Below, in pieces: positions 17,076 through 63,469 of a stretch of DNA of 64,000 bases. Positions within the stretch are counted from its first letter, which is position 1; each line of letters opens with the position of its first letter. The notes beneath the pieces are model-generated. The model did not search any database. It worked only from the letters and a program-made list of their open reading frames with translations, and was not told the origin of the DNA. A program made the position numbers and the translations under genes. Source of the stretch: Aphrophora alni (lineage: Eukaryota > Arthropoda > Insecta > Hemiptera > Aphrophoridae); contig OY740768.1 in the NCBI GenBank assembly GCA_963513935.1, forward strand, positions 47,463,142-47,527,141. The letters run 5' to 3'.

Positions 17076-17081
17076 TTTATT
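17076..17081 (-). other. Poly(A) signal of the knottin gene
   Basis: AATAAA on the minus strand, about 93 bases beyond the stop codon of the two-exon secreted-peptide gene. Position and sequence suit a canonical polyadenylation signal; the cleavage site itself is not visible. Confidence 0.6.
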
Positions 17082-17173
17082 TGTCAGGAAGTAATATTAC
17101 TATATAAAATTACAATTGTGAATTATTTACCAACGCGAAAGTAATCATTTGGAATAATTCTTACCGCTGCACG

Positions 17174-18518
17174 CTATGGAACTGGAGTTTTACTTTGTCT
17201 ACACACTCCTACATGACTAAATGGATAAATACGTAGACAATGATAGTCAGGACAGCAGTCCTTATGACCGCTACACTGAAAATACACAAAATATTATATA
17301 AAACAAACAACATACCTAAATAAAAAAGCTTCCACCCATTTATGTAAAAATAAGAATAATGGTAATAACAAATATTTTAACGTACATAATGAGAGATCAG
17401 TCTGGAATATATGATTGTTCCAGCTACTAACAGAGTCTTTCCAGCTATGTTGTCTACAGAGTCTACTAAAAATGCAATCGACCAATACAGAGTGCGTCAA
17501 AATTTGAAATATCTCAGCTTTTTTTTCAATATAAGCATCGATATTTCTTCACATTTTTTTATATACCCTATATTTCATAAAACAGATATTTTGGTAATAA
17601 ACAAAAAATATATATATTTTTTTTTTAGTTTAGTTTAGTTTTTGAATTATTCCTAATATTTCAATACATAAATTTATAACGAAATTACAATGCTTTTAAT
17701 TGGCATAAGACATAATGTGACCTCTCTATGAAATGTTGTTTACCTGCTCTGTCCACATATTGAGACAGTTTATTTTGGAAAAGTATTGAGTGATGACAAA
17801 TTAAATATTTGTGAATCATGTGAATTGACTATATGAGAGGTCAGATGATCTCTTTCAATTACAAGCCTATTACTTGCGTTATAAATTTATAATATTTCAA
17901 TACTTCCAAAACTAAAAAAAAATATTTTTTTTTAATTTCTCTAAAACGAATTATAGTGAATAACTCTAAAAATTATCAATTTGCTAACATTAAAAAAAAA
18001 GAGTTTTTTTTTATTATTTTAACTTATACTGTAAATTATAACTTTACGATTCATTCCATTTTGTAATAGCTCTAAAAAGAACTCTTCAACGCAATTTTTC
18101 GAATACTTCACGTCAATTTTAAATCGAACAAGGATAATTATATTTCAAACTTTTGGTTCACCATATATAAATTAAATTTATTCCACAGATATTTCTTAAT
18201 ATTTATTTGTTCCATTATTACATAATATTTAAAATAAATGAACAAAAATATTGATCGTAGTTCAGACCCATCCTTTGTTAAAAATAACTTCACTGTGGAA
18301 ATGAAATGATCTTAAATGAGTAAGAAACATATAATTTATCATAAGTATTGAGAAATTTAAATCACAAATTTTGAACCACCTATGAATGACAGAAAACTAT
18401 ATTTATTTTCTCTAAATTTTACAATTGTTTTACTTACTGAATTTTGTTGGCAAGTTTCTCCGACACCTATGTACACGACCAGAGCCAAGAGAGCAAAAAC
18501 CAAAGACAAATACTTCAT
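17174..18518 (-). CDS. Secreted six-cysteine knottin-like peptide, two exons
   Basis: Exon 1 is 18,518-18,438 (27 codons); exon 2 is 17,275-17,174 (33 codons plus TAG). The intron of 1,162 bases begins GTAAGT and ends in a pyrimidine-rich TTTTCAG, and splits the coding sequence in phase 0. The predicted product has 60 residues: a signal peptide of about 20 (MKYLSLVFALLALVV then a small-residue cleavage region) and a short mature part with cysteines at 23, 28, 34, 35, 40 and 52. The spacing C-X4-C-X5-CC-X4-C-X11-C fits the inhibitor-cystine-knot pattern. Such peptides in arthropods include venom and salivary peptides, antimicrobial-like peptides and non-toxic endogenous regulators; the sequence does not say which. 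All signals of a working gene are present and nothing is broken. No paralogue is visible nearby. Confidence 0.85.
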
Positions 18519-18544
18519 GTTTATTGAATTGAAACAATCTTAAC

Positions 18545-18576
18545 TGGAGTTTAAGCTTGGAAATTTGTTATATATA
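18545..18576 (-). promoter_or_regulatory. Core promoter: TATA box and initiator
   Basis: On the minus strand TATATATAA begins at 18,576, and 31 bases further a CCAGTT initiator-like sequence places the likely transcription start at about 18,545. This leaves a 27-base 5' leader before the ATG at 18,518. Spacing is textbook for a TATA-Inr promoter and supports the small gene downstream. Confidence 0.65.
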
Positions 18577-18764
18577 CTCTCCAAACCCCAATACAACATA
18601 GTTACACGAAAAAAATTTACAAGCAATTAAATCTAAATTATGATTTTGATTACGGAGGTTTATGACCATTTACCGTAAGTCCATTACTGATTAGAGAATA
18701 ATATATACCTTAATTTTAAAACAAAGTGAAACAACAAAACTTAGATAAGAATGAATTATTACTG

Positions 18765-18772
18765 TGACGTCA
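18765..18772. promoter_or_regulatory. CRE/ATF-type palindrome
   Basis: A perfect TGACGTCA about 220 bases upstream of the predicted transcription start of the knottin gene. A second identical palindrome occurs near 19,884. An eight-base site may arise by chance; binding is inference only. Confidence 0.25.
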
Positions 18773-24045: not shown

Positions 24046-25722
24046 GTGCAGGGAGTCGGATGCCCAGTACCGGTGGCTGTCAGGGGTGAGAAAGTGGGAA
24101 CCGGGTCGTCGTCAGCAAGCGACCGCAATGTCTCGGAAGAGGCCCACTTGTTTCATGAGTCGGATGTAGACCCATTTCTAAGAAGTGCAAAAGTCCAGAG
24201 GTCCCCTCTATCTGGCCAAATGTGTGGTAGGTCGCCCTCTTCTGATTTCCTCTTCAACAGCGGAAATCAGGAGAGAGGGTGGTTGATGACCTATTAAATG
24301 AAAATAAATCCCTTCGAGCTAGGATCAGTGAGATGGAGGATCATTGCAAGGATCTGGGTACGAATTAACAGCACTCAGGACCGATAATTAAGGGCTCAAG
24401 CGAGCCTTCAAGCACAGTGCTGAGGAGCGTGACATTGCAAATATTGTTGGCCTGCAAATAGAGTATTGTACTAATGATGAAAATTTGGCACAAGAAACCG
24501 ATTGGATTCTAAATAAGAGGAAGAAGTCACCTAAAAAGCGGAAAGCTGAATCTTCACCCGAAATAATACAAAATGAAGAACATTAGATCACAACTTTAGA
24601 TAACGAAAAGAAAAGTAATAACCTGCCACCAATATTTGTAAGTGGAATCGAAGACTTCATTGTTTTTAAAGATAAAGTCATGAAATCTGTAAAGAATAAT
24701 ATCAATTTTAAAATGCTTGAAAACAGTGAAATTAAAATGAACACAGTAGAAAGCGATGATTATCGAGCTGTAATTCACTTTCTACAGGAAATTTGATCAC
24801 AGGAAGGCAGCAGCCTCAACAATATTGCCTATCATACATACCAGTGCAAGCAGTCAAAACCATACAAGGTTGTAGTAAGAGGTCTACATCCTTCAACTAA
24901 GAGAGAAGATATTATACATGAGTTCGATAGTTTGGGTCAAGTAGCCATCAGATCAAATAACATTGCTATTAAGAAGAATATCATTGGAATTCCAACTAAA
25001 CTCCAGTTTCCATGGTTTTTTGTTGATCTGGCTCCTAAACTCAATAATAAAGAGGTTTACAAAATCAAGCATATGCTCTTCTGTAAAATTAAAATTGAAC
25101 CTCCGTAAAAAAAAGACTAAAATTCTGCAGTGGAAAAGGTGCCAGAGCTTTGCATACACAAAATTATTGTCACAGACAAGCAAGGTGTGCAAAATGTGGA
25201 GAAGAACATCTTACTGTATCATGTACAAAATTAAAACATACACCATGCAAAGGTTTCAACTGTGGGGGAGAGCATACGGGCAACTGGAAGGATTGCCCAG
25301 CTTGCAAGGCTGGGGAATCAATGCTACAAAATTCAAAAACGTCAGTGACACAACGAGTTCAGCAGAGATCCTTGGCACCGGCTGAAAAGGTTGCTTCAGA
25401 TAAATCGTACGCTGAAGTAGCGAATATATCTTTTGATCAACCACAGATGGACAGCATTCCACCGCAACTTGTTAATAAAACTACTTCTCCAACAATTCAA
25501 GATGTTTGGGATGCCATTCAAAAAATGCGAAAAACACTTAACGATATAAAACCAAGACCAACTAATTTAGAAAAGGAAAGGGCTCTAAATAAGCAGTCCG
25601 TCATCAGTAAGAGTAAAAAGAATAAACGACACAGTTATCACTTCGGAACATCACTTGGAATGCCAATGGCTTGGCTCTCAGTAGTAGAGTGCTCGAAACG
25701 TTTCTCCATCATGAAAATATAG
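24046..25722 (+). pseudogene. LINE ORF1 (gag) with PRE_C2HC region and zinc knuckles
   Basis: Read across several frame changes. The N-terminal part holds SPSSDFL and then a coiled-coil stretch (DLLNENKSLRARISEME, about 24,280-24,350). A Lys-rich linker (KKSPKKRKAESSP) precedes a region (about 24,600-25,110) containing PYKVVVRGLHPSTKREDI, typical of the PRE_C2HC domain found in insect LINE gag proteins. Two zinc-knuckle-like groups follow near 25,190-25,310: CAKCGEEHLTVSC and CGGEHTGNWKDCPAC, with irregular spacing. Stops lie at about 24,582, 24,796 and 25,107. The end overlaps the start of the endonuclease frame by about 80 bases, as is usual. The protein would bind the element RNA. Confidence 0.8.
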
Positions 25723-27172
25723 ATATTGCTCTCATTACTGAAACCCACTTTACAAATAAGACCCATTTAAAACTTTTCGGATTTACAATTTACCACTCCA
25801 TACACCCGAGTGGTAGAGCACATGGTGGATCTGCTGTTATCGTTAAAATCAATGTAAAGCATTTTCAGAGAGAAGAAGTTCAAGAACATTTCCTTCAGGG
25901 AACTGCGATCACAGTAGAACAAAACAATACAGATGTTGTGATTGCAGCACTTTATTGCCCTCCTAGACACACCATCAAAAGAGAACTATTTAATGATTTA
26001 TTAAAACAAATGGGTCCACGATTTATAATGGGTGGAGATTTTAATGCCAAGCATATCGCTTGGGGATCACACCTAAAGGTAGGGAGCTACTGCAAGCCAT
26101 AAACTTTAACTGTTGTGAATGCAATTAGGCTGGAAGACCAACTTATTGGCCTTCAGACAAAAACAAAATACCTGATGTCATAGACTTTTTCATTACTAAA
26201 GGACTATCCTCAAATTATGTTGAAGTTAAGGATATCGAGGATCTTTCGTAGGATCACATACCAATTCTGACGCTTAGCATGACAGCTATACGCAGGGAGA
26301 AAAGAGGCTCGCTTACTGAAAAGTTTACAAATTGGGATAAATTCAGATATGTGCTAGACCGGCTAATTGATTTTAGAGTAAGACTTAAAACTATGAAAGA
26401 CCAATGACCAAGCACAAAACTTCAGTGAAATAGTATCCATGGCAGCAACCATCTCTACTCCAGCTGACAGAAACACAGAAAATCACAAAATATGTAATCC
26501 AGTAAAAATTAGAGAAATGATCAAAGAAAGAAGGAAGGCGTTTCTGGATTCATTAAAGGCTTCCTGATGACAAGAACAAATTTAATCGTATCAGCAACGA
26601 GTTGAATCGATTGATTAAGGATGTTAAGAAGAAGAGTTTTGATGCGTATTTGGAGAATTTCGCAGTGGATGCAGACTCGGACTACTCCTTGTGGAAAGCA
26701 ACTAGTAAATTTAAGAGACCTGTAAAGAGAATTCCTCCAATCAAAGATGAGTCGGGCAACTGGATGTGTCGTGATAATGAAAAAGCCGTGCTGTTTTCGC
26801 GGCATCTATATAATGTGTTTCAACCTCACAGCATCGCTTCTAGAAACACATTGACAAAGTCGTATAGAGATTATTCTTGTATTACGCCTGTAACTCCCTT
26901 AGAAGTTCCTCAAGAAATTGATAAAAACATCAACGCAAGGAAAGCGGCAGGAGTTGACAGAATCTCACCGAGAGTTCTTAAGGCATTGTCGTGGAAGGGT
27001 GTTGTACTTCTCACATACATATTTCCATCTCGAGCATGTACCGGAGTGTTTCAAGATTGCGCAAATCATCATGCTGCACAAACCAGACAAACCTACTGAA
27101 AATGTGACATCATACAGACTGATTTAAATTTTGTATGTAAATCACGTGCTTTTATGCTTTTCATGCTAATTA

Positions 27173-27240
27173 TGCTTTTTCGTGCTCCACGCTATTGGGC
27201 GCGGCAAGTGGCGCCCAATAGCGTGGAGCACGAAAAAGCA
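27173..27240. repeat. Perfect hairpin with 30-bp arms
   Basis: Arms at 27,173-27,202 and 27,211-27,240 are exact reverse complements; the loop is GGCAAGTG. The arms contain the GC-rich phrase CGTGCTCCACGCTATTGGGC, which stands out from the A/T-rich surroundings. Absence of any mismatch suggests recent origin or constraint. Confidence 0.9.
27209..27218 (+). other. Candidate primer binding site (tRNA-Lys type)
   Basis: TGGCGCCCAA is complementary to the 3' end of lysine tRNA, a common primer of LTR retrotransposons. It sits at the hairpin loop/arm border, about 250 bases before the first ATG of the following frame, as a leader would require. A ten-base match may be coincidental. Confidence 0.4.
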
Positions 27241-27464
27241 AAATTTTAGAAAAAAAATTCAAAATTTTGAGTTTTAGTGTTTCATACGAACAAGAATATC
27301 TTAAGTTCTCATATAGTTTATATGTATATGTTTTTTTTTAATAAGTTGTGCTGGTAATTACGACAAATATAATAAATTGCAAAATTAATAATAATTAAAA
27401 GTAGAGTCCAAATTAAACCGAAATCTAAATTTTTAAAATAAATATGTGAACAAGTGAAGTGAAA

Positions 27465-27930
27465 ATGGGACCAGCGAAAGATCTAGCTAAACAGGAAGGT
27501 TCAAAAGAAGAGGAGACGGAGATGCAAAAAATGGTGAAGTACTTGAACCAAATGGAAGAAAGAAGAAGGAAAGAAAGGGTACAGGACAAAGCAGAGCAAC
27601 AGAAAAAGAAAAGGAGAAGGAAGAAGATGACAAGCTAAGAAGATTAGAAAAAAGAATCGAAAGAAATCAGGAAAAGGAGGAGATGGAAGCCAAGCAGAAG
27701 AAAGAAAAAGAAGAAATGGAAGCCAGGTGGAAGCAGGAGAGAGACGAAAGGATGAAGAGAGAAGAAGGAATGGAAGCTAAGTGGATGAGAAGAGATGAGG
27801 AACTGGAAGCCAAACGGAAGCAGGAAAAAGAAGAATTAGAAGCAAAACGAAAGCAGGAAAAAGAAGAATTAGAAAGAAGGAAAACGAAAGCAGGAAAAGG
27901 AGGAGATGGAAGCCAAATGGAGCAAGAGAG
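27465..27930 (+). pseudogene. Glu/Lys-rich coiled-coil reading frame (gag-like?)
   Basis: Starts ATG at 27,465 (MGPAKDLAKQEGSKEEETEM), reads to a stop at 27,636, and continues in another frame from about 27,638 to the junction at 27,930. The product is dominated by Glu, Lys, Arg, Met and Ala heptad-like repeats such as KQEKEELEAKRKQEKEELE, so a long coiled coil is likely. The low complexity prevents family assignment. Similar N-terminal coiled coils occur in some LTR-retrotransposon gag proteins. It is fused by chance to the RT continuation, which creates an artificial longer frame. Confidence 0.5.
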
Positions 27931-29186
27931 ATATCTAAACTGTGGGAGAAATTGTTTATCAAGCGACTTGAAAACACCGGATCATCAGTTCGGGTTCCGC
28001 ACAATAGACCAATTACACAGAGTAACTGCTGTCATTGAAAAGGCTTTTGAAGATAAATTATATTGTTGTGCTGCTTTCCTTGATGCTGCACAGGCTTTTG
28101 ACAGAGTGTGGCATGCAGGCTTTGCTATTAAGCTGAGTGTATTATTACCAGTTAATTACTGTAGAATGTTGGAATCATATCTTGTCGGTCGTTTGTTTTG
28201 CGTTGTTTATGGGGACGCTAGATCAGCCTTCTATCCCATACGGGCTGGAGTGCCTCAGGGCAGTGTTCTCGAACCAATATTGTATTTGTTATACACAGAA
28301 GATATTCCTACCACTAATAATACAACTGTTGCCACATTTGAGGACGACACAGCAATATTTACCATTGGTGAGACTCAAGCTCAGGCAACTGACAATCTTC
28401 AAAGTTGTCTTGACCGGGTAGCGGAATGGACCTGTGCCTGGAAAATCAAAATCAATGAACAAAAATCAACACATGTTACATTTGCTTTGTGACACGTAGA
28501 TAATATGCAATGTGTTTATATAAATAGCAAGCTAATACCGCAACATAATTGGTTAAATATTTGGGAATGCACCTTGATAAACGCCTTACATGGAAACTCC
28601 AAGTGAAATAAAAGTAGAAAGGATTCGCCTTAAAATACGTCAAATGTACTGGCTAATTGGCAGGAAATCGCAACTGGACCTTTATAATAAGTGACTACTT
28701 TATTTAACAATAATCAGACCAATTTGGACATACAGAGTGTTACTTTGGGGATAAACAAAAAAATCTAATCGACTGTTAGTACAAAGAAGCCAAAATGGTC
28801 TAATTTCAATGACCAACGCAAGATGGCGTCAGCGTAATGATGACCTTCATTCGGACTTAAATATGAAATCAGTAGAATACGTTATAACGGATTATGCAAA
28901 TAGACATGAGAAGAGACTCCTAAATCATGTTAACGTGGAAGCTTTACAACTGCTGGACACGGAACTGTGTATAAGAAGACTTGGCCGGCTGTAGCCCTAG
29001 GATCTACCTTAATATTGACGTTTTTAGATACCTACTAAGGTTTACGTAGCTAGAGCCTAGATTATGATTTCGGCTTCAAAACATGTATCTCGATTTCTTG
29101 TATATGTATTACTTATTTGAGCAGTAGCTTAAGATTTTAATAATCCAGTATTTCAATAAAAAATATGTCATTAAAAAAAAATTAAA

Positions 29187-49690: not shown

Positions 49691-50804
49691 GCGTTTTTTT
49701 TGGAGGTGTTTGTTATTTTGACTGACCTCCCCCCCCCTCCCTCGTCACTTCCGCTCCAACCACATCTGTCTTTCGCGTGTAAACTCCGGGCTGCACTATA
49801 CATTTTTCATGTATTTCACACTAACAATTAACAATACCGCATCATATTGAACAGAATGACTATAAAAAAATAAGGAAGTGATATTCCTATTGTAGAGGTA
49901 TTCAGTTTACATATTGATCTACACTCTTCTAATGACCTATTATTATGAACTAGATCTCATCGTAGTCTAAAAATTCTCATCGTAATCGTAAAACAACATA
50001 ATTGATGGTGGCAATAGCCGCCAGATGTAAGTATGGCCGGCGAACCACCACCCTTATATACATTGAATTGTACGCGAGTTTTCTAGTTTATTACTGTTTT
50101 TAAATTCAAAAAGCCCCTTGAAATTATAAGATGTAAGAAAAACGTTTAAGTTTATCATTAAAAGAATAATATTTCACTTATAATTGCTAGTTATTAAGTT
50201 ATATTAAGTTAAAGTTCTGATTTGACGGTTTACCGACAAAATTTTTTTTTTCTTCAGCCAAAAAATTCAGGCGACGCTTCCCGTATTAACGCTGGATGCG
50301 AGTATGTGTGCGCACGCATCTTCGATTCTCACCATATGGCTAACATATATATTATAAAAATACATAATATTGTCTTAAATTTTGGGATTTCAGTCTTGGG
50401 ACTGTGAGTCCCGAGGTTCCCCTAATTTCCCGTTACATATTAAGGGTGGGCCCTCCGGGATAGGTCTCCCACCGTAAATTGACATGCTGGTCAAATCAAA
50501 ACGAAAGAAGGAAATCATAATCTGACCTCGAGCGACGCAGTCTAGGTCAGTAATTAAGTGGGATACCCTAGGTAGAAATAAAAGAGATGCGTAACGTCAT
50601 AATTTAATTTGGAATTACTATTATAATTTTTGGGGGAAAACAAATTAATTTTGTTCAATATTTAGTAAACGTATTTCGGATTCAGCGTTAATTCGGGTAA
50701 GTCGCCGAAGAAAGAAGGTATGCTAATAAAAAAAGTGTCGGTTGTAATTAGTCGCGGTATAATTTCTAAATAATGAAAAATAAAAATAATTTCATCAAAA
50801 TAGT
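49691..50804. other. Intergenic region with GC-richer patches
   Basis: No gene supported. Patches at 49,725-49,800, 50,020-50,060, 50,265-50,340 and 50,400-50,560 are richer in G+C and CpG than the window. The patch near 50,440 (GGGTGGGCCCTCCGGGATAGG) resembles in style the 5' leader of LINEs, but I cannot tie it to one. Confidence 0.5.
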
Positions 50805-50815
50805 AAGCTCGCTTT

Positions 50816-51335
50816 TCCTGGCCACTCAGGTATTGATGGTAATGAGAGAGCAGATGAATTAGCCAGGTCAGGTTCAGAATCCCCTTTCGTGGGCCCGGAA
50901 CTGGTGTTCGGGATCTCCTATGGACATGCCAAAGCAGCAGTTGATACGTGGATACGGGAGGGGATGAATAGGGCCTGGACGAATTCAACCACTAGTAGAC
51001 TTGCAAAAAGGTTATTTAGATCAAGCAAGAAACATGCTGAACAACTCATCTCTCTCAGAAGGGATAACATGAGGTGGGTGGTTGGGCTCTTAACGAGCCA
51101 CTGTCACCTCAGAAAACATCTACACAGGATAGGGATTGCTGCAGACAATACTTGCAGGAAATGTGGTTTGGCTGAAGAGTCCGTAGAACACATTCTTTTA
51201 GAGTGTGAGGCATTAGGACGTGCCAGGCTATACTCTCTAGGCCTGCCGGGGAAAGAGATGGAAACCATCCTAGATAACCCTATTGGTAGTATCTGTTCCT
51301 TCATAAGGATGACGGGTATCACTAGTTGGGTGTAG
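50816..51335 (+). pseudogene. LINE pol C-terminus: end of RNase H plus zinc-like motif
   Basis: Opens with PGHSGIDGNERADELARSGS, the last catalytic region of a LINE RNase H domain (His and Asp visible), followed by a basic helical stretch and WVVGLLTSHCHLRKHLHRIG, then CRKCGLAEESVEHILLEC, a CX2C-X8-HX4C arrangement usual at the end of such pol proteins. The frame is open to TAG at 51,333. It is a fragment without a start and cannot make a functional product. Confidence 0.85.
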
Positions 51336-51431: not shown

Positions 51432-52327
51432 GGTTAAAAAGTTGTTTGGTTAAATATTACAAGTTTTTGTCGTAAGGTTATGCCGAAATAACTGTGAATA
51501 CATATATAGACATACATAATAATTCAAATATACATACATGGCTATAAATATAAAAAATAAATGCAAGTGATTTTAGTTGAATAATCAGAACGTAATCATT
51601 ACTTTAAATTAGGCAGCAGAAAGATTAGAATTAGTTGATCGTATTTTCTTTGGCTTAGAACCATGAGATATTTATGTCTGTTAGCATCCTGCCATACATC
51701 TTATCTGCTGATAAGCGATTGAATGACAATCTAAAACACTATTTTTATCGAAGGTCAAATCTTTACAAAAATATATTGAAATACTAAACTGACTTTAAAT
51801 AACTTTACATTTATACAACTTCCGAAATAATAAATAGTAATTAAATAAATAATAGTCCATCCGTTTCGTCGGGGCTATCTGCGCGCGCATCACCCATTGT
51901 CCGTGTAATCACCACACAATGGACCCCACAATTCTACAAATTACTTTTTCTAGCATGTATATACTTCTACAAGAAAACCAGTAGTTTACCTTACTTATCC
52001 CCACCCGAGAATTTACGTATTTTATCGACCATTTTTATTTTTTCTTCACAGGTACCTTTTTATAAGGGCGACAGGAAGAAATAATTAACATAGTGGTAGT
52101 TTTTGAAATTTTCGGTATTCTATTTAGACTTAACGTAAGCATCAAATTGTATAAAAGTATAAAATTATGAAATTTTATATAAGTATCATTAAAAAGAAAA
52201 AATATATATTGCACAAAAAGAAATAAGAATTTATTCGAAATTTACTTATTATACTATACTTACAAAAAGAAATATTATTTTTGTGAAAGAAAAAAAAAAA
52301 GTAAACAAGACTACAGAAATTTTTAGC
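51432..52327. other. Intergenic region
   Basis: No gene supported. A CpG-rich phrase, CTATCTGCGCGCGCATCACC near 51,888, is unusual here and could be an element end, but no partner is found. Confidence 0.55.
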
Positions 52328-53418
52328 ATGGCTTTAGATTTTGGTGACGAAGATTTTGAACGTATTATTATTAACAAAGATGCATATTTAGGTGTAGAAC
52401 ATATACAGCGCTTCAGCGATTTAATAAAAGAATGTTTTAATACTGATTTCTTAGGAATGGAAGAATTACAAATTTATGATATGATTACCCCCGCTTCTCA
52501 TGATAGATCTAGAATTCAAATTTTATTTCGGCCTTTAACAGATGATGACATGCTCAGAGGTCACTTTGTGTGCAGTTTTTTTTGACACTGAAACTATTTA
52601 TATTTATGACTCATTAAATGAAAAGAAAGATCATAGTCACTTATAGATTAGTTTTGCTACATTATACCCATTTTATTTTCAATCTGGAAAGACTATTAAG
52701 TGGCCTGAAGTTCAACTTCAGAGTGAGTGTGATTGTGGTATATTCGCAATTGCTTTTGCGACATGTCTTGTACATGGTATTAGACCAGATTATGTGCGAT
52801 ATAACTGTGATAATAATTATATGCGACAATTTCTCTTACGTATATTTAGAGAGCGTTCTATAAAAAACTTTCCTTTTCATTTAATTCAAATTCCTTCTTG
52901 GCATCTTCAATATTTAATGATCAATTGTGATTATAATATCATAAAAAATGGAGGACGTCTAAATGATTATCATATTGAAAGATTTCATAACCTACTTTTA
53001 CGGTTTACTATTTACAAGCCTCAACATACCGGGAGACTTCAAGTTCTTTCAAAAATCAAACCAATGGCTGAGGGTGAAAAAAATATTCAAATTTTGTTTT
53101 CTAATTCTGAACATTGGTTATGTAGCTATTACGATGGTAAGTTATTATATATTTATGATTCTTCAAAATCTGATACATTAGATGCAGATTTTAAAATTTT
53201 TTTGAAAAAGCTTTAACCATTTTATTTTAACAAAAATGAAAAAGATTATATTTCCTTCTGTAGCCCAGCAACTTAATGGAGTTGATTGTGGCGTTTTCGC
53301 GATAGCATTTGCCACTTCATTAGTATTTGGTCATGATCCGCAAAATATTACTTATACATATTCCTTAATGCGTAATCATGTATTTAAACTTTTAAGTGGA
53401 AATATCTTAACTTTGTAA
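52328..53418 (+). pseudogene. Two tandem Ulp1/C48-type cysteine protease domains
   Basis: Two homologous domains about 550 bases apart. Domain 1 (52,328-52,870) opens MALDFGDEDFERI and has AYLGVEHIQRF, the His in GHFVC (52,562), the Asp in YIYDS, and Gln/Cys in QLQSECDCGIFAIAFAT (Cys codon 52,734). Domain 2 (52,930-53,418) has DYHIERFHNLL, EHWLC (His 53,112), YIYDSS and AQQLNGVDCGVFAIAFAT (Cys codon 53,287). His-Asp-Gln-Cys is the catalytic set of the SUMO-protease-like C48 family. A frameshift in an eight-T run at 52,575-52,582, TAG at 52,648, TAA at 53,214 and a shift near 53,245 break it. Such proteases are also found in mobile elements, and the helicase fragment next door favours that origin. 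Confidence 0.75.
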
Positions 53419-53472
53419 CTTTCTAAATACTTTGCCATCAAATACTGTTGGCAAAGTAGGTACCAATCAAAT

Positions 53473-53955
53473 GTGCGATACCTTAAAGATGCTATGTTAA
53501 AAAAAATTAATACCGAGGAAATTGAGCTTGTTGCCGAAGATACAATTCGAGCGAAGAATATGCACAAAAAAAGAATAAAGTCTTTAATGAATGATGAAGC
53601 GGGTAGTTCACGAACTGCAGGATTAGCTAGAGTAATTAAAATAAAAGCTGTATCAAAAATTATGATAAGACGAAATATTGATGTTTCTATCGGCTTGGCT
53701 AATGGTACAATAGGTACTATTATTTCTGTAACAAGAGATAATAATAATGTTGTCGACACTATTAAAATTGAACTTACCAATAAAAGACAATATTCTATAG
53801 AACGTATAGAATCTAAATTTCAATAAATGAGGAATGCTTTTATAATAAGAAAACAATTTCTAATTTGCAATAGTTATGGAATAACTATTCATAAAAGTCA
53901 AGGTCTAAACTTAGAAAATGCAGTAGTTGAAGCTGGAAAAAACTTTAACTTGTAA
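53473..53955 (+). pseudogene. Pif1-family helicase, C-terminal fragment
   Basis: The frame contains IELVAEDTIRAKNMHKKRI, then SRTAGLARVIKIKAVSKIMI and RRNIDVSIGLANGTIGTI, the second helicase domain of Pif1-like proteins, and after an in-frame TAA at 53,824 it continues with SYGITIHKSQGLNLENAVVE, which holds the conserved HKSQG motif. The reading then ends early where the arginine-finger block (ALSR) is expected. Walker A and B motifs are absent, so only the last third remains. Same strand and 55 bases after the protease pair; probably one former gene or element. Confidence 0.8.
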
Positions 53956-59031: not shown

Positions 59032-62000
59032 TTAATAAAAGTTAAAATTCCCCCTATTTAAACTGCGTTTGAAAAAGCACAAATTTCTTATATCGGCTAG
59101 GATAGGGCAGCGAGCAATAAAATGGTAAACCTTCTCCTTTTCATTTATGTTGCATAAGGAGCATAACCATATTTTATCGTTACACCTTGCTTTGATGATC
59201 CAACTTATTGTTTGTATATCATATTTATCAAATAAAACAAGTCTACTGCAGAGTTGAAAGTCAAGGTCCCGGTACTGTTTATGATATGTCGCATTTCTTG
59301 CCCTCTGTAAACATTCTCCCTCCCAAGTAACTCTGACCGCTTCAATAACACTAAGCATCTGTTCCCGTAGCCTATCAATATTGCTCATATCCACATCAAT
59401 CCCGTATTTATATCCTAACACTTTCCACTCCTGGTACCAGTAAATGCCACTTTTTATTATTTGTTTAGCAAGAATGTTTGGCAATCTATTCTTTAGTAAA
59501 GCTACAACCCTTAAAAGAAAATTCAGGTGGATTCTCAATGTATACAAATAAACCTTTTCAAACCCTCTTTCAAAAAAACAAGACATAATTTGGGGTGTTA
59601 TTTGGCAACTTAAATATTCTTTTTATAAATAATCTAAATACCCCTTCCAATTCATCGCTTTCCTTGTAGCCCCAGACCTGGGAACTGTAGCATAAAATCG
59701 CCTTCACAATAGAATTAAAACATAATATAAACTTGGCACTAAGTGGGACCCTCTCGTTACCTAAAAGGTTGTGCCATACCGCGATTATAGCATATTTTGC
59801 AGCCATAGATTTGTCCTTAAATTGAGTTTCCCATGACATTGATGGAGTAAGTATAACACCTAACTATTTATATTTATTGACAACCTCTACCCGTTGCCTT
59901 TTGTCACTTCTCATTTCTACACAACTGACCCCCTTTCCTAAAAACCATTATTTTAGATTTACTTAAATTAACCCGAAGATTCCATTTGTTACAATAATTT
60001 TCGAGTTTATTTATCATACTCTGCAAACTACCAGGAGTAGGGGACAGAATAACAATATCATCTGCATACAATAAAACACTGACCTTAAACCCTTCAAAAT
60101 CGCATCCTCCATCTAAAATATCAGCCAAATCGTTCACAAATAAAGAGAATAGCAATGAACTTAAAATACAGCCTTGTTTCAAACCCATATTAGTTTCAAA
60201 ACATTTCGTTACGCCCGCATTACACCACACTCCCGATGTTGTACCTTTGTAAAGCTCTTTTATAATATTCAGCATATGAGAAGAAACACCCAAACACGAT
60301 AACTTAAAATACAGCGCCTTTCTATCAATAGTATCAAAAGCAGAGGAAAAATCTACAAAAAAACAATACAGTTTCGCCCCCTTCTTTGACAGTTGCAACT
60401 GAATCATACTAGTTAAGTTGAATATGTTATCTATGGTGGAATAACCCTTTCTAAATCCGGCTTGAAATTCACTAATTATTTGATGACTGTGTACCCAATT
60501 GTTTAATCGATTGTGCAATAAACTAGCATACACTTTCGCTATACAATCTATAAATGACAGACCTCTGTAATTTTGCACACAATTGACATCCCCTTTTTTA
60601 TGCAAGGGAAAAATTATAGATTTTTTAAAACTTTCTAGAACGCGTTCTTCCATATATATTTTATTGAAAATAGCCAATAGCTTTGAACTTAAAAACCGTG
60701 GGCCGTTTTTAAAAAAATCATACGGTACTCCGTCAAAACCTGGAGCCTTCCCATCTTTCAATTTTGCCAAAATCGTTTGCAGTTCTTGCTGGTTGAATTG
60801 CTTGTCGAGATCATTGTCGAAAATATACTGTTCCGTATAAGAAATATCCCTTGGTACAATAAGAGGATTCAAAAGATTTTTAAAATACTCCACCCATTCG
60901 ACACAGCTAATATTTCCAGCTAATCTGCTTTTTGTATTTTTAAAACTTTTCATAGAATTCCAAAATTGTTTTGCATCTTTAACTTGCCCCAAACTATTTA
61001 CAACATATTTGTAATGTATCTTACGCTTAGTTCTGCATAACGATTTAAAGTTTTTATTTGCCTCTAAATATGCGACTTTAACCATAGTTGAATTTGTTTT
61101 GCGAAACAGCATTAAGAGTTTAAAAGCTCGCTGCCTTGATACCAGACATTCGAAATCAAGCCATTGTTGTTTTTTGTTTACCGTAGTGTTATTATTTGTA
61201 CTCGGTTTAAAGTGGGCTGCTTGTTTGATACAACGAATCATGCTATTGACATTTATCTGGTTATCATTCAAGACATCAAAGGTTGACATTTCCTTATCTA
61301 TGTTTTTACCGAACAAGACGTTATCTGAATTAGTCCATTTTATTCTTGGCAACAATGGTAGTATACAATCCCCACCCCTTTGGCTCTCTGCAAGTCTACC
61401 AACTTTACAATTTACATAAATAGGTAGATGATCCGATCTTGCATGACTTATAACCTCAAAATCATTTACTATTTCTAAACAACTCACTGATACAACCGCA
61501 AGGTCAATTACAGAATTACCCATCTTCCCAATAAAAGTAAATTCTCCTTCAGCATCACTTTGCGTTCTGCCATTCAAAACCACTAATCCAAAATTAAGGA
61601 ATAATTCTAGAAGTTTACCCCCCCCCCTTGTATTTAATATCCTGTCTTTCGATTTGTGACCACTCTAATTGTACTAGTTACATTAATATAATAATACATA
61701 TCAGAATTATTTTGTTCGTTAGATATTCGGCCATTAAAATCTCCAATTATTATTAAATTTTGCTCTGAATTTGAATTAATAAAATTACACAAATTTTCAA
61801 AGCTGTTCTCCCATTTGTTATAATTTAAATAAATTGGCAAAACCAACCAATTTTTAATTTCAATTATTTTTATATTACGTTTGCATACGAAACTAACTTC
61901 TTTAGTAAAGGATGACTGTAAATTTACACAACAAATAATACTTCCTATTGCCCTTCCAAAATTAGCATTTCTTTCAGCAAAACTAAAAAAATCGATTTTA

Positions 62001-62242
62001 AAATTAGAAAGACTCTTAACAATAAACTCTTCATCATGTTCAGATATAAATGTTTCTAATAACAAAATTATATCATACTTATTTAGTAAATGAAAAAAAT
62101 AATCTTCACCAACCTTGGCTCTTAGTCCACATACATTATAAGACAATATTTTAAAATTGCTAACCGTCTGAGGCACTATAATATTGTCCAACTCCTTATG
62201 AGCTGTTTGAGAACATTGTCCTGAGAAATTGGTGTTTAGTCC
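59032..62242 (-). pseudogene. LINE ORF2: endonuclease, reverse transcriptase, C-terminal zinc motif
   Basis: Endonuclease: LSYNVCGL near 62,150, LLLETF (Glu), IIIGDFNGRI (Asp/Asn), then after frame changes near 61,630-61,670 GLVVLNGR, NSVIDLAVVS and RSDHLPI. RT (about 61,000-59,940): KDGKAPGFDGVPYDFFKNG, NYRGLSF, FQAGFRKG, FVDFSSAFDTIDR, GLKQGCILSSLLFSLF and an intact YADDIVIL. C-terminal part (59,839-59,032) has SSQVWGYKESDELEGVF and a CSLCNINEKEKVYHFIARC zinc-like motif. Breaks: a shift near 61,665, a second at the ten-C run 61,618-61,627, a shift near 59,930, a TAG near 59,867 and a shift at the seven-A run near 59,575. All are single small changes. The frame follows ORF1 in the same phase after one TAG, with no ATG before the endonuclease. 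Confidence 0.9.
61618..61627 (-). other. Ten-C homopolymer causing a frameshift
   Basis: On the minus strand a run of ten G separates SKDRILNTRG from GGKLLELFLNFGL, which are continuous in relatives but in different frames here. The run length is the likely cause; it may be a real mutation or an assembly error at a homopolymer. Confidence 0.7.
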
Positions 62243-63151
62243 CTAAGAAGATGTTGTCTTCACTCCATTCTCGTCTGTCCATCCTGGTTGCAGCTTCCCT
62301 GGACCGTCCTTTCTCAACTCCGCTATGCGCGATGAGAAATCGTAGTTGAATAGATCCTTCAGCTTCACTATTCCATCCGTTCGGCCGGCCATCAGTGTGT
62401 TGTCCTTCCAGGTGAATTTGACACATTCTATTCTAATGTGGTCAAAAACTAACGGCATACGACGTCTTCCCAACTCTTTTTCTATCTCCCGTCAGACTGC
62501 AGCAAGGTAGGCTCGCTTTAATCTTACATCCTGTGTGTAATCCCGATGTACGACATAAGATGTTCCCTTTAACTTATTTACATTGGACATGATCCACCCA
62601 ATATCGTCATCTGAAGGGAACTGGGCAATTATTGCTCTGCCCTTTGCTCCTAATGGTTGCGCTCTATTGACCCACAAACCGCCATTACACTTTAACACTT
62701 CCACACAGAATTGTTTCACAAGGGCTTTAAAGTCTGTCTGACCATTCCATTTAAGACCTACAAAAATTAAATTGTTACGTCTAGATCTACCTTCTAAATC
62801 ATTAAGCTTATCCATAATAACCTGTTCTTGTTTCTTAATACAGTCTATCTTTGCTTTCAAAACTTTGTTCTCTTCCGTCAGACTTCTCACCTCAGAAGAC
62901 ACAATTAAGAGGTCTTTTTTAGTAGCCAATGTTGATAATTTTGTATCTAGCAAGTTACTCAACCCAGTCATTAGCTGTCCATGCGTCGTGTCACCTACCT
63001 TTTCATTATCCATCTTGTCACAATGCGTTTCCGACATTCCTAACGAAACACTTGCGTCTTCCGAAAATTCTGGCAAACTGTACGCCCTGAAACGTTTTAA
63101 ACCTTTCGGATTTTTTGGGGAAAAATATTTGTCAATCGTTGAGTCATTCAT
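62243..63151 (-). pseudogene. LINE ORF1 protein: coiled coil plus RNA-binding region
   Basis: Starts ATG at 63,151 (MNDSTIDKYFSPKNPKGLKR) and ends TAG at 62,243, 302 residues, with one in-frame TGA at 62,492 where relatives of the surrounding sequence would read Arg (CGA to TGA). A coiled coil (roughly residues 75-130; VRSLTEENKVLKAKIDCIKK) leads into SRRNNLIFVGLKW, the start of an RRM-like domain seen in LINE ORF1 proteins, then a basic C-terminal half with RAYLAAV and REIEKELGRRRMPLVF. The protein would coat the element RNA. In-frame ATG choice is based on the lack of any earlier ATG; upstream codons are open but probably untranslated. Confidence 0.8.
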
Positions 63152-63469
63152 AGGCCCGAAAAATTTCTCAAATTCCGCAAAATACGAAAAATGAAAATAA
63201 TACACAGGTGAGAGGTCTATCACTAACCTGCAGAACGAAACGTTAACGGAAACTAACGTTCTTCAATAACGTAAATATTTATGCTTCACACTATAAAATG
63301 CAATAATAATAATTGTAGTGAAATATTAATAAACTTTGATACTTAATACATGTTTTGTAGTGGACTATACATAGGCTACTTAAACAGGCGGGACCAAACT
63401 CGCTGTCTCATCGTAGACACGCACACTATTTACACACACACAAATAAAACAGTACACTTAACATATATT

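Follow-up and report, generated by a model that had tools for sequence, protein, structure and literature searches.

The inhibitor cystine knot (ICK) follows the cysteine consensus C3-7C3-8C0-7C1-4C4-13C. In the definition given in one account of the fold, two antiparallel strands house the fifth and sixth cysteines (PMC4626739). Among insects, the ickin genes (naickin-1, -2 and -3 in Nasonia and amickin-1 in Apis) have been described as ICK genes for tachystatin-type antimicrobials, and the available account lists three naickins in Nasonia and single tachystatin-type copies in a sawfly and the honeybee (PMC10542623). The knottin-like peptides of the stinging caterpillar Parasa lepida are portrayed as a highly divergent, multi-member set of 46-71 residues with a signal peptide and six cysteines (PMC8145965). 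Four stress-responsive knottin genes, with products of 59-65 residues, are reported from Bemisia tabaci (PMC4974540).

The ICK genes of chelicerate venoms have also been described in terms of their introns. In the scorpion lambda-KTx and calcine genes, as described, the propeptide is interrupted by a phase-1 intron, and a phase-2 intron lies where the mature peptide begins (PMC3694633). For the spider H. cerberea, 42 ICK genes are reported, with phase-1 and phase-2 introns and a mature peptide encoded wholly in exon 3 (PMC13172734), and other spider toxin genes are reported to be intronless (PMC7199488).

A two-exon gene on the minus strand

The DNA analyzed here, referred to as the window, is a stretch of 64,000 nucleotides (G000:C3:47463142-47527141) from a 1.70-Gb assembly of 388 contigs. 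A preliminary description had placed in it a two-exon gene with a TATA box, initiator, ATG, splice signals, stop codon and AATAAA, and all of these were confirmed, accurate to the base, on the minus strand:

18568..18574, minus strand: TATA box TATATAA, from sequence reading
18542..18547, minus strand: initiator CCAGTT, with CAGT at 18546-18543, placed from the TATA spacing and the promoter alignment
18518, minus strand: ATG start codon
18438..18518, minus strand: coding part of exon 1, 81 nt, with the predicted signal peptide (residues 1-20) and residues 21-27, which include Cys1
17276..18437, minus strand: phase-0 intron of 1,162 nt, with GTAAGT donor from 18437 and TTTTCAG acceptor to 17276
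17174..17275, minus strand: coding part of exon 2, with Cys2 to Cys6, the tail RQSKTPVP and a TAG stop
17076..17081, minus strand: AATAAA poly(A) signal

Transcription is predicted to start near 18545, with the TATA box about 29 bases upstream of the initiator A; the arthropod initiator consensus is TCAGTT, from which CCAGTT differs by one base. A GT-rich stretch (17060-17041) lies beyond the AATAAA. The spliced product is MKYLSLVFALLALVVYIGVGETCQQNS from exon 1 followed by CSGHKDCCPDYHCLRIYPFSHVGVCRQSKTPVP from exon 2, 60 amino acids in all, and reading it returned the phase-0 join and the six-cysteine pattern that had been claimed, C-X4-C-X5-CC-X4-C-X11-C, with the same spacings of 4, 5, 0, 4 and 11. 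Candidate signal cuts after residue 20, 22 or 29 came from a hydropathy scan combined with a simple -3/-1 rule. We chose the cut after residue 20, between GVG and E, which is two residues from Cys1 and leaves a predicted mature peptide of 40 residues with a pI of 7.9 and a charge of about +1. Within the intron, at 17668-17890, there is an inverted repeat with 35-nt arms that are 83% complementary and 153 nt apart, possibly a small MITE-like insertion.

Elsewhere in the window, the minus strand at 59035-63262 carries much of a non-LTR retrotransposon, recognized by an RVT_1 match at E 1.6e-37, the open frame of which has 99% identity over 67% of the query to P0001 on a 4.4-kb contig; a search for a close named relative of this LINE found none. 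Degraded LINE-type pieces with endonuclease, RVT_1 and zf-RVT matches lie on the plus strand at 25626-28489 and 50790-51332. The plus-strand region 52193-53823 includes a Pif1 2B-domain match (53419-53823), which we take to be Helitron-like, and neighboring frames that resemble a ULP1-type protease by eye; the frame at 52647-53213 has no Pfam match. Rfam at gathering thresholds and a tRNA scan each returned nothing in the window.

Some features of the wider genome were also recorded. Exact TTAGG 30-mers number 31,161 forward and 32,333 reverse (0 and 1 in the reversed control), and among the matches listed TTAGG arrays occur at many internal places on contig C1, between 0.59 and 2.28 Mb. The mitochondrial contig, C388, has the gene order I-Q-M-ND2-W-C-Y-COI, which together with the TTAGG repeats fits an insect and speaks against Lepidoptera, most Neuroptera, Diptera and spiders. 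The COX1-like matches found off this contig, on C1, C2, C5, C13, C17 and other contigs, are presumably nuclear mitochondrial copies. In COX1 on the mitochondrial contig (L057, C388:8800-10400), an AGG codon makes one motif read HSDIG under code 5. The usual motif is HKDIG, and reassignment of AGG to lysine is known in some arthropod mitochondria; the codon possibly reflects such a reassignment.

Paralogues elsewhere in the genome

When the window protein was searched against its own genome, C6 and C17 proved to carry exon-1-like matches. Eighteen stretches of 10 kb were examined and gave eleven genes, ten of them on C6 and the other on C17, all with an 81-nt exon 1, a phase-0 donor (GTAAGT, except for GTAATT in K5/L028) and an exon 2 that opens with the Cys2 codon. 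With the window gene counted in, 10 of these 12 genes have an AATAAA no more than 200 nt from the stop, the exceptions being K4 and K9. A DNA query made of the promoter plus exon 1 has at least 31 matches in the genome:

C6, 22.11-22.37 Mb (0.26 Mb): 17 matches
C5, 130.46-130.52 Mb: 4 matches
C10: 4 matches
C6, 19.15 and 19.66 Mb: 2 matches
C17, C3 (the window), C7 and C8: one match each

A paralogue protein query added weak matches (E 0.01-0.1) at 19.57-19.69 Mb of C6 and on C73, and no second family copy was found elsewhere in the window. Thirty of the 31 loci were analyzed, yielding 21 complete two-exon models (the 20 best-scoring and L051), with exon 2 of L027 taken from the earlier C6 and C17 gene models. 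In the nine incomplete loci (L047-L050 and L052-L056), exon 2 is out of reach, the start or frame of exon 1 is broken, or Cys1 is missing.

The preliminary description had suggested that homologues losing the cysteines would speak against its reading of the peptide. At least six cysteines are kept in all 21 complete models, the window gene included, though the incomplete L047 is without Cys1, and all six are invariant in an 11-member family alignment. The CC pair is adjacent in 18 of the 21 models, with spacings of 4-5, 5-8, 0, 4 and 10-13. Every complete model has a phase-0 intron and an exon 2 that opens on a cysteine codon; this is Cys2 in 20 of them, and in L051, which has seven cysteines, the intron precedes the third. 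The window gene is a dispersed, outlying member of a large, largely tandem, lineage-specific family.

Two copies on C5 (130.46-130.50 Mb) have a split CC pair and retain six cysteines: L036, with C-X1-C and spacings of 4, 3, 1, 3 and 11, and L037, with C-X2-C and spacings of 7, 3, 2, 5 and 12. They adjoin two C5 copies that have the standard CC pair. Four loci (L047, L048, L049 and L053) have lost Cys1 or have a broken exon 1, which suggests birth-and-death turnover.

Given the short exons and AT-rich DNA, in which gene-like signals are common, we considered whether open frames and splice-like signals could have come together by chance to form the window gene. The window has a single match to the exon-2 cysteine pattern, against a mean of 0.1 in 100 first-order Markov windows. 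A composite search for a signal-like open reading frame with a donor, followed by an acceptor and a six-cysteine ICK product, used criteria that were fixed after the gene had been seen and that excluded the TATA box, initiator and poly(A) signal; the window gene was its only match in the window, and a comparable gene appeared in just one of 1,252 second-order Markov windows. The 20 further complete models built from the same parts also argue against chance. These paralogues refute the chance reading in practice, and its probability is negligible; having the same exons and splice signals at other places in the genome, they are independent proof of the gene. We regard the locus as almost certainly a real gene.

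Fold, relatives and selection

The six cysteines of the window peptide stand in ICK order and within the usual loop lengths. An AlphaFold2 model of exon 2 alone (33 residues), made with no alignment and lacking Cys1, has strands at residues 11-15 and 23-27 that hold Cys5 (residue 13) and Cys6 (residue 25), with a mean pLDDT of 75.4 and a pTM of 0.34. Spacings in range and the presence of both ICK strands in this exon-2-only model support the ICK pattern claimed in the preliminary description. The product is very probably an ICK peptide, and the secretion and fold of the window peptide are predicted.

The sole fold match listed for the exon-2 model in the PDB is tachystatin B of the horseshoe crab (PDB 2dcw/2dcv), with 43% identity over 21 columns and an rmsd of 1.2, and it is weak (Foldseek E 2.8, probability 0.21). 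Tachystatin B2/B1 is also the top match in a PDB sequence search with the window protein, again weakly (E 0.2). Against the Pfam family Tachystatin_B (PF11478) the window protein scores 12.2 bits, under the curated cut-off of 25, and it passes no other Pfam cut-off. The family profile matches mostly spider toxins in the PDB, the best being the spider peptide SHL-I (E 0.037); from their names we take 13 of the 15 listed matches to be cystine-knot peptides, the remaining two being a ribosomal protein and Xt3a. Six of 11 family members match Pfam Toxin_12 (best E 0.0015) and four match DIM (best E 0.067). Two bacterial NCBIfam families were also matched, CCPGW_fam by 5 of 11 members (best E 0.00053) and SE1626_fam by 6 of 11 (best E 0.0035); the former is a putative bacteriocin family. 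We discounted both as matches of short motifs, and in the window protein the SE1626_fam match covers residues 1-24, the signal peptide.

No homologue was found among 5.8 billion proteins, either with the window protein or with the 11-member alignment, for which none of the 71 candidates had an E of 1 or below. Distant kin may nevertheless exist, because the protein search needs shared 5-residue words. The strings CCPDYHC and CCPGYQC do not occur in the literature searched, and within these protein and literature searches the peptide can still be called undescribed, as had been proposed. Viral contigs gave 12 pattern matches, none of which was confirmed.

The reported intron position of the ickin genes is the same as that of the window gene, an agreement that may reflect either inheritance or coincidence. 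The likeness rests on gene structure as described, and the ickins have an extended, proline-rich, basic C-terminus, whereas the tail is short in the window family (8 residues, with 2 basic residues and 2 prolines, in the window peptide and 1-7 residues in the other ten aligned members). The families also differ in size, with at least 31 promoter/exon-1 matches here and, in the account cited above, three ickins in Nasonia and single copies in a sawfly and the honeybee (PMC10542623). The Parasa lepida set, as described, resembles the window family in its multiple members, signal peptide and six cysteines (PMC8145965). The same report presents that set as non-monophyletic and without a recent lineage-specific expansion (PMC8145965), whereas the window family has many young copies.

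The Alo-3 family of beetles, Hemiptera and springtails consists, like the window family, of hexapod knottins that are short and secreted and have a CC pair. The spacing reported for its 12 springtail members, C-X6-C-X7-9-CC-X3-C-X10-C (PMC10051947), is not that of the window peptide. The Bemisia tabaci knottins are likened to it by description only, on the basis of their length of 59-65 residues (PMC4974540). Scorpion and spider venom ICKs share with the window family a cysteine framework and an expansion in number, but the scorpion and funnel-web ICK genes, as described, have a propeptide and two introns before the knot, whereas the window gene has no propeptide and a single phase-0 intron between Cys1 and Cys2.

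Selection on exon 2 was estimated from 14 of the 21 models, leaving out the divergent L031, L032, L036, L037 and L051, as well as L038 (exon 2 identical to L033) and K4/L027 (intron not tabulated). The codon model was purpose-written, with one scale for fixed relative branch lengths and 29 codons, and gene conversion is possible; under it, exon-2 omega is 1.54 overall (2dlnL 3.5 against omega 1, below the usual 5% threshold) and 2.07 without the cysteine codons (2dlnL 8.8). M2a is preferred over M1a by a 2dlnL of 26.8, with about 60% of sites at an omega of 3.5 and 18% near 0.02, and 0 of 40 simulations under the M1a null reached this value (maximum 7.7). The statistic is 21.1 (omega 3.2) on an intron-only tree and 25.6 (omega 3.5) with the window gene removed. 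The posterior for omega above 1 is near zero at the cysteines, P36, Y38, R42 and G50, and the signal falls at most loop sites. Exon-1 omega in the same codon model is 1.02, not distinguishable from 1. The mature exon is evolving under diversifying selection, with its cysteines fixed.

The window copy could be an unexpressed duplicate in decay, within a family that otherwise works. It is the only family match listed on contig C3, where it lies in transposon-rich DNA, some other family copies are visibly broken, and its exon-2 dN against 14 others is high (0.33-0.67, exceeding dS in 13 of 14). Its open frame, canonical splice sites, TATA box, poly(A) signal and all six cysteines argue otherwise, as does an exon-1 dN below dS in 14 of 14 pairs, though the family-wide exon-1 omega is 1.02. 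Intron distances from the window gene to the 13 members with tabulated introns are 0.23-0.41. We judge decay to be improbable. Judged from its sequence, the locus is a gene that is intact and splice-competent, and its product, once the predicted 20-residue signal peptide is lost, would be a secreted mini-protein of some 40 residues with an ICK pattern.

Regulation and possible function

Upstream of the TATA box, three elements are common among the 26 family upstream sequences:

18765..18772, minus strand: CRE-like element TGACGTCA; ACGTCA core shared by 23 of the 26, with the full TGACGTCA in 5, the window gene among them
18743..18748, minus strand: GATA-type element TTATCT, shared by 15 of the 26, though not at a constant position
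18687..18694, minus strand: CTAATCAG, in a promoter block common to the paralogues, in 17 of 26 upstream sequences

TATAWA is found at -95..-40 in 22 of the 26. The sharing of promoter elements across the family is due in part to common descent, and the CRE- and GATA-like elements are putative regulatory sites. Strict NF-kB (kB) sites are absent from all 26 upstream sequences, which are at most 420 bases long, so that induction by infection is not supported; a classical NF-kB-induced antimicrobial gene was rejected on this basis.

The CRE-like element would suit a role other than that of a weapon, either as an endogenous regulator acting on the insect's own channels or receptors in the manner of OCLP1 or as a small enzyme inhibitor. 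Expansion to dozens of copies whose loops diversify, as in this family, is seldom seen among regulators. For OCLP1, an ICK peptide of the honeybee that is not a venom component, one source reports a validated ion-channel-inhibitor function (PMC5705965), but OCLP1 is a disputed guide because related ant peptides are said in another to have no proven toxin activity (PMC7290781). We consider a regulator or inhibitor unlikely.

The best reading, which we hold with about even confidence, is that the peptides are secreted defence effectors belonging to an insect-type knottin family that is undescribed and has expanded in its lineage. A TATA-driven gene with CRE- and GATA-like elements would make a pre-peptide in a secretory tissue, and the signal peptide would be removed with no propeptide step. 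Three disulfides, expected to pair I-IV, II-V and III-VI, would lock a small beta hairpin, and the exposed loops, which vary from copy to copy, would bind a changing target. We take that target to be microbial, so that the peptides would serve in antimicrobial or antifungal defence in the manner of tachystatins and ickins.

Defence is favoured because the mature peptides are mostly cationic, with a net charge of +2 or more in 16 of the 21 models, because the nearest fold and top sequence match, though weak, is the antimicrobial tachystatin B, because the intron position is as in the tachystatin-type naickin and amickin genes, and because there is no propeptide, unlike in the venom ICKs of scorpions and funnel-web spiders. 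Against it stand the charge of only +1 on the window peptide itself, the lack of a strict NF-kB site in the 26 upstream sequences, the weakness of the tachystatin match (E 0.2 in sequence, Foldseek E 2.8), the predominance of spider toxins among the PDB profile matches together with Toxin_12 in 6 of 11 members, and diversifying selection, which suits toxins equally well.

Several of these same points would fit a venom or salivary arsenal of ICK peptides delivered into prey, host or attacker and acting on ion channels. The family is expanded, with loop omega above 1 and fixed cysteines; its profile matches include theraphotoxins, agelenin and similar peptides, and its Toxin_12 matches and want of strict NF-kB sites point the same way. 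The stinging-caterpillar set, also multi-member and of similar length, was read as toxins in the report describing it (PMC8145965). The absence of a propeptide and the phase-0 intron inside the knot are nevertheless unlike the ICK toxin genes of scorpions and funnel-web spiders, and the one fold match listed for exon 2 is to an antimicrobial peptide. We regard a venom or salivary role as a less likely alternative to defence. It is likewise possible, though doubtful, that the family is a previously unrecorded, lineage-restricted weapon family, with at least 31 promoter-signal exons, a fast mature exon (more than half of the sites at an omega of about 3.2-3.5) and the two re-spaced copies L036 and L037.

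Short split genes of the kind found in the window are easily missed by annotation. As a single gene this is an ordinary knottin; the size of the family and its selection regime are of specialist interest. The family amounts to one scaffold with many naturally varying loops and a clear signal of selection, which makes target recognition directly testable. The phase-0 intron is a possible marker of homology among insect knottins that no longer resemble one another in sequence, and if its position is inherited, it would mark an insect ICK lineage distinct from the ICKs of chelicerate venoms and possibly extending beyond the Hymenoptera.
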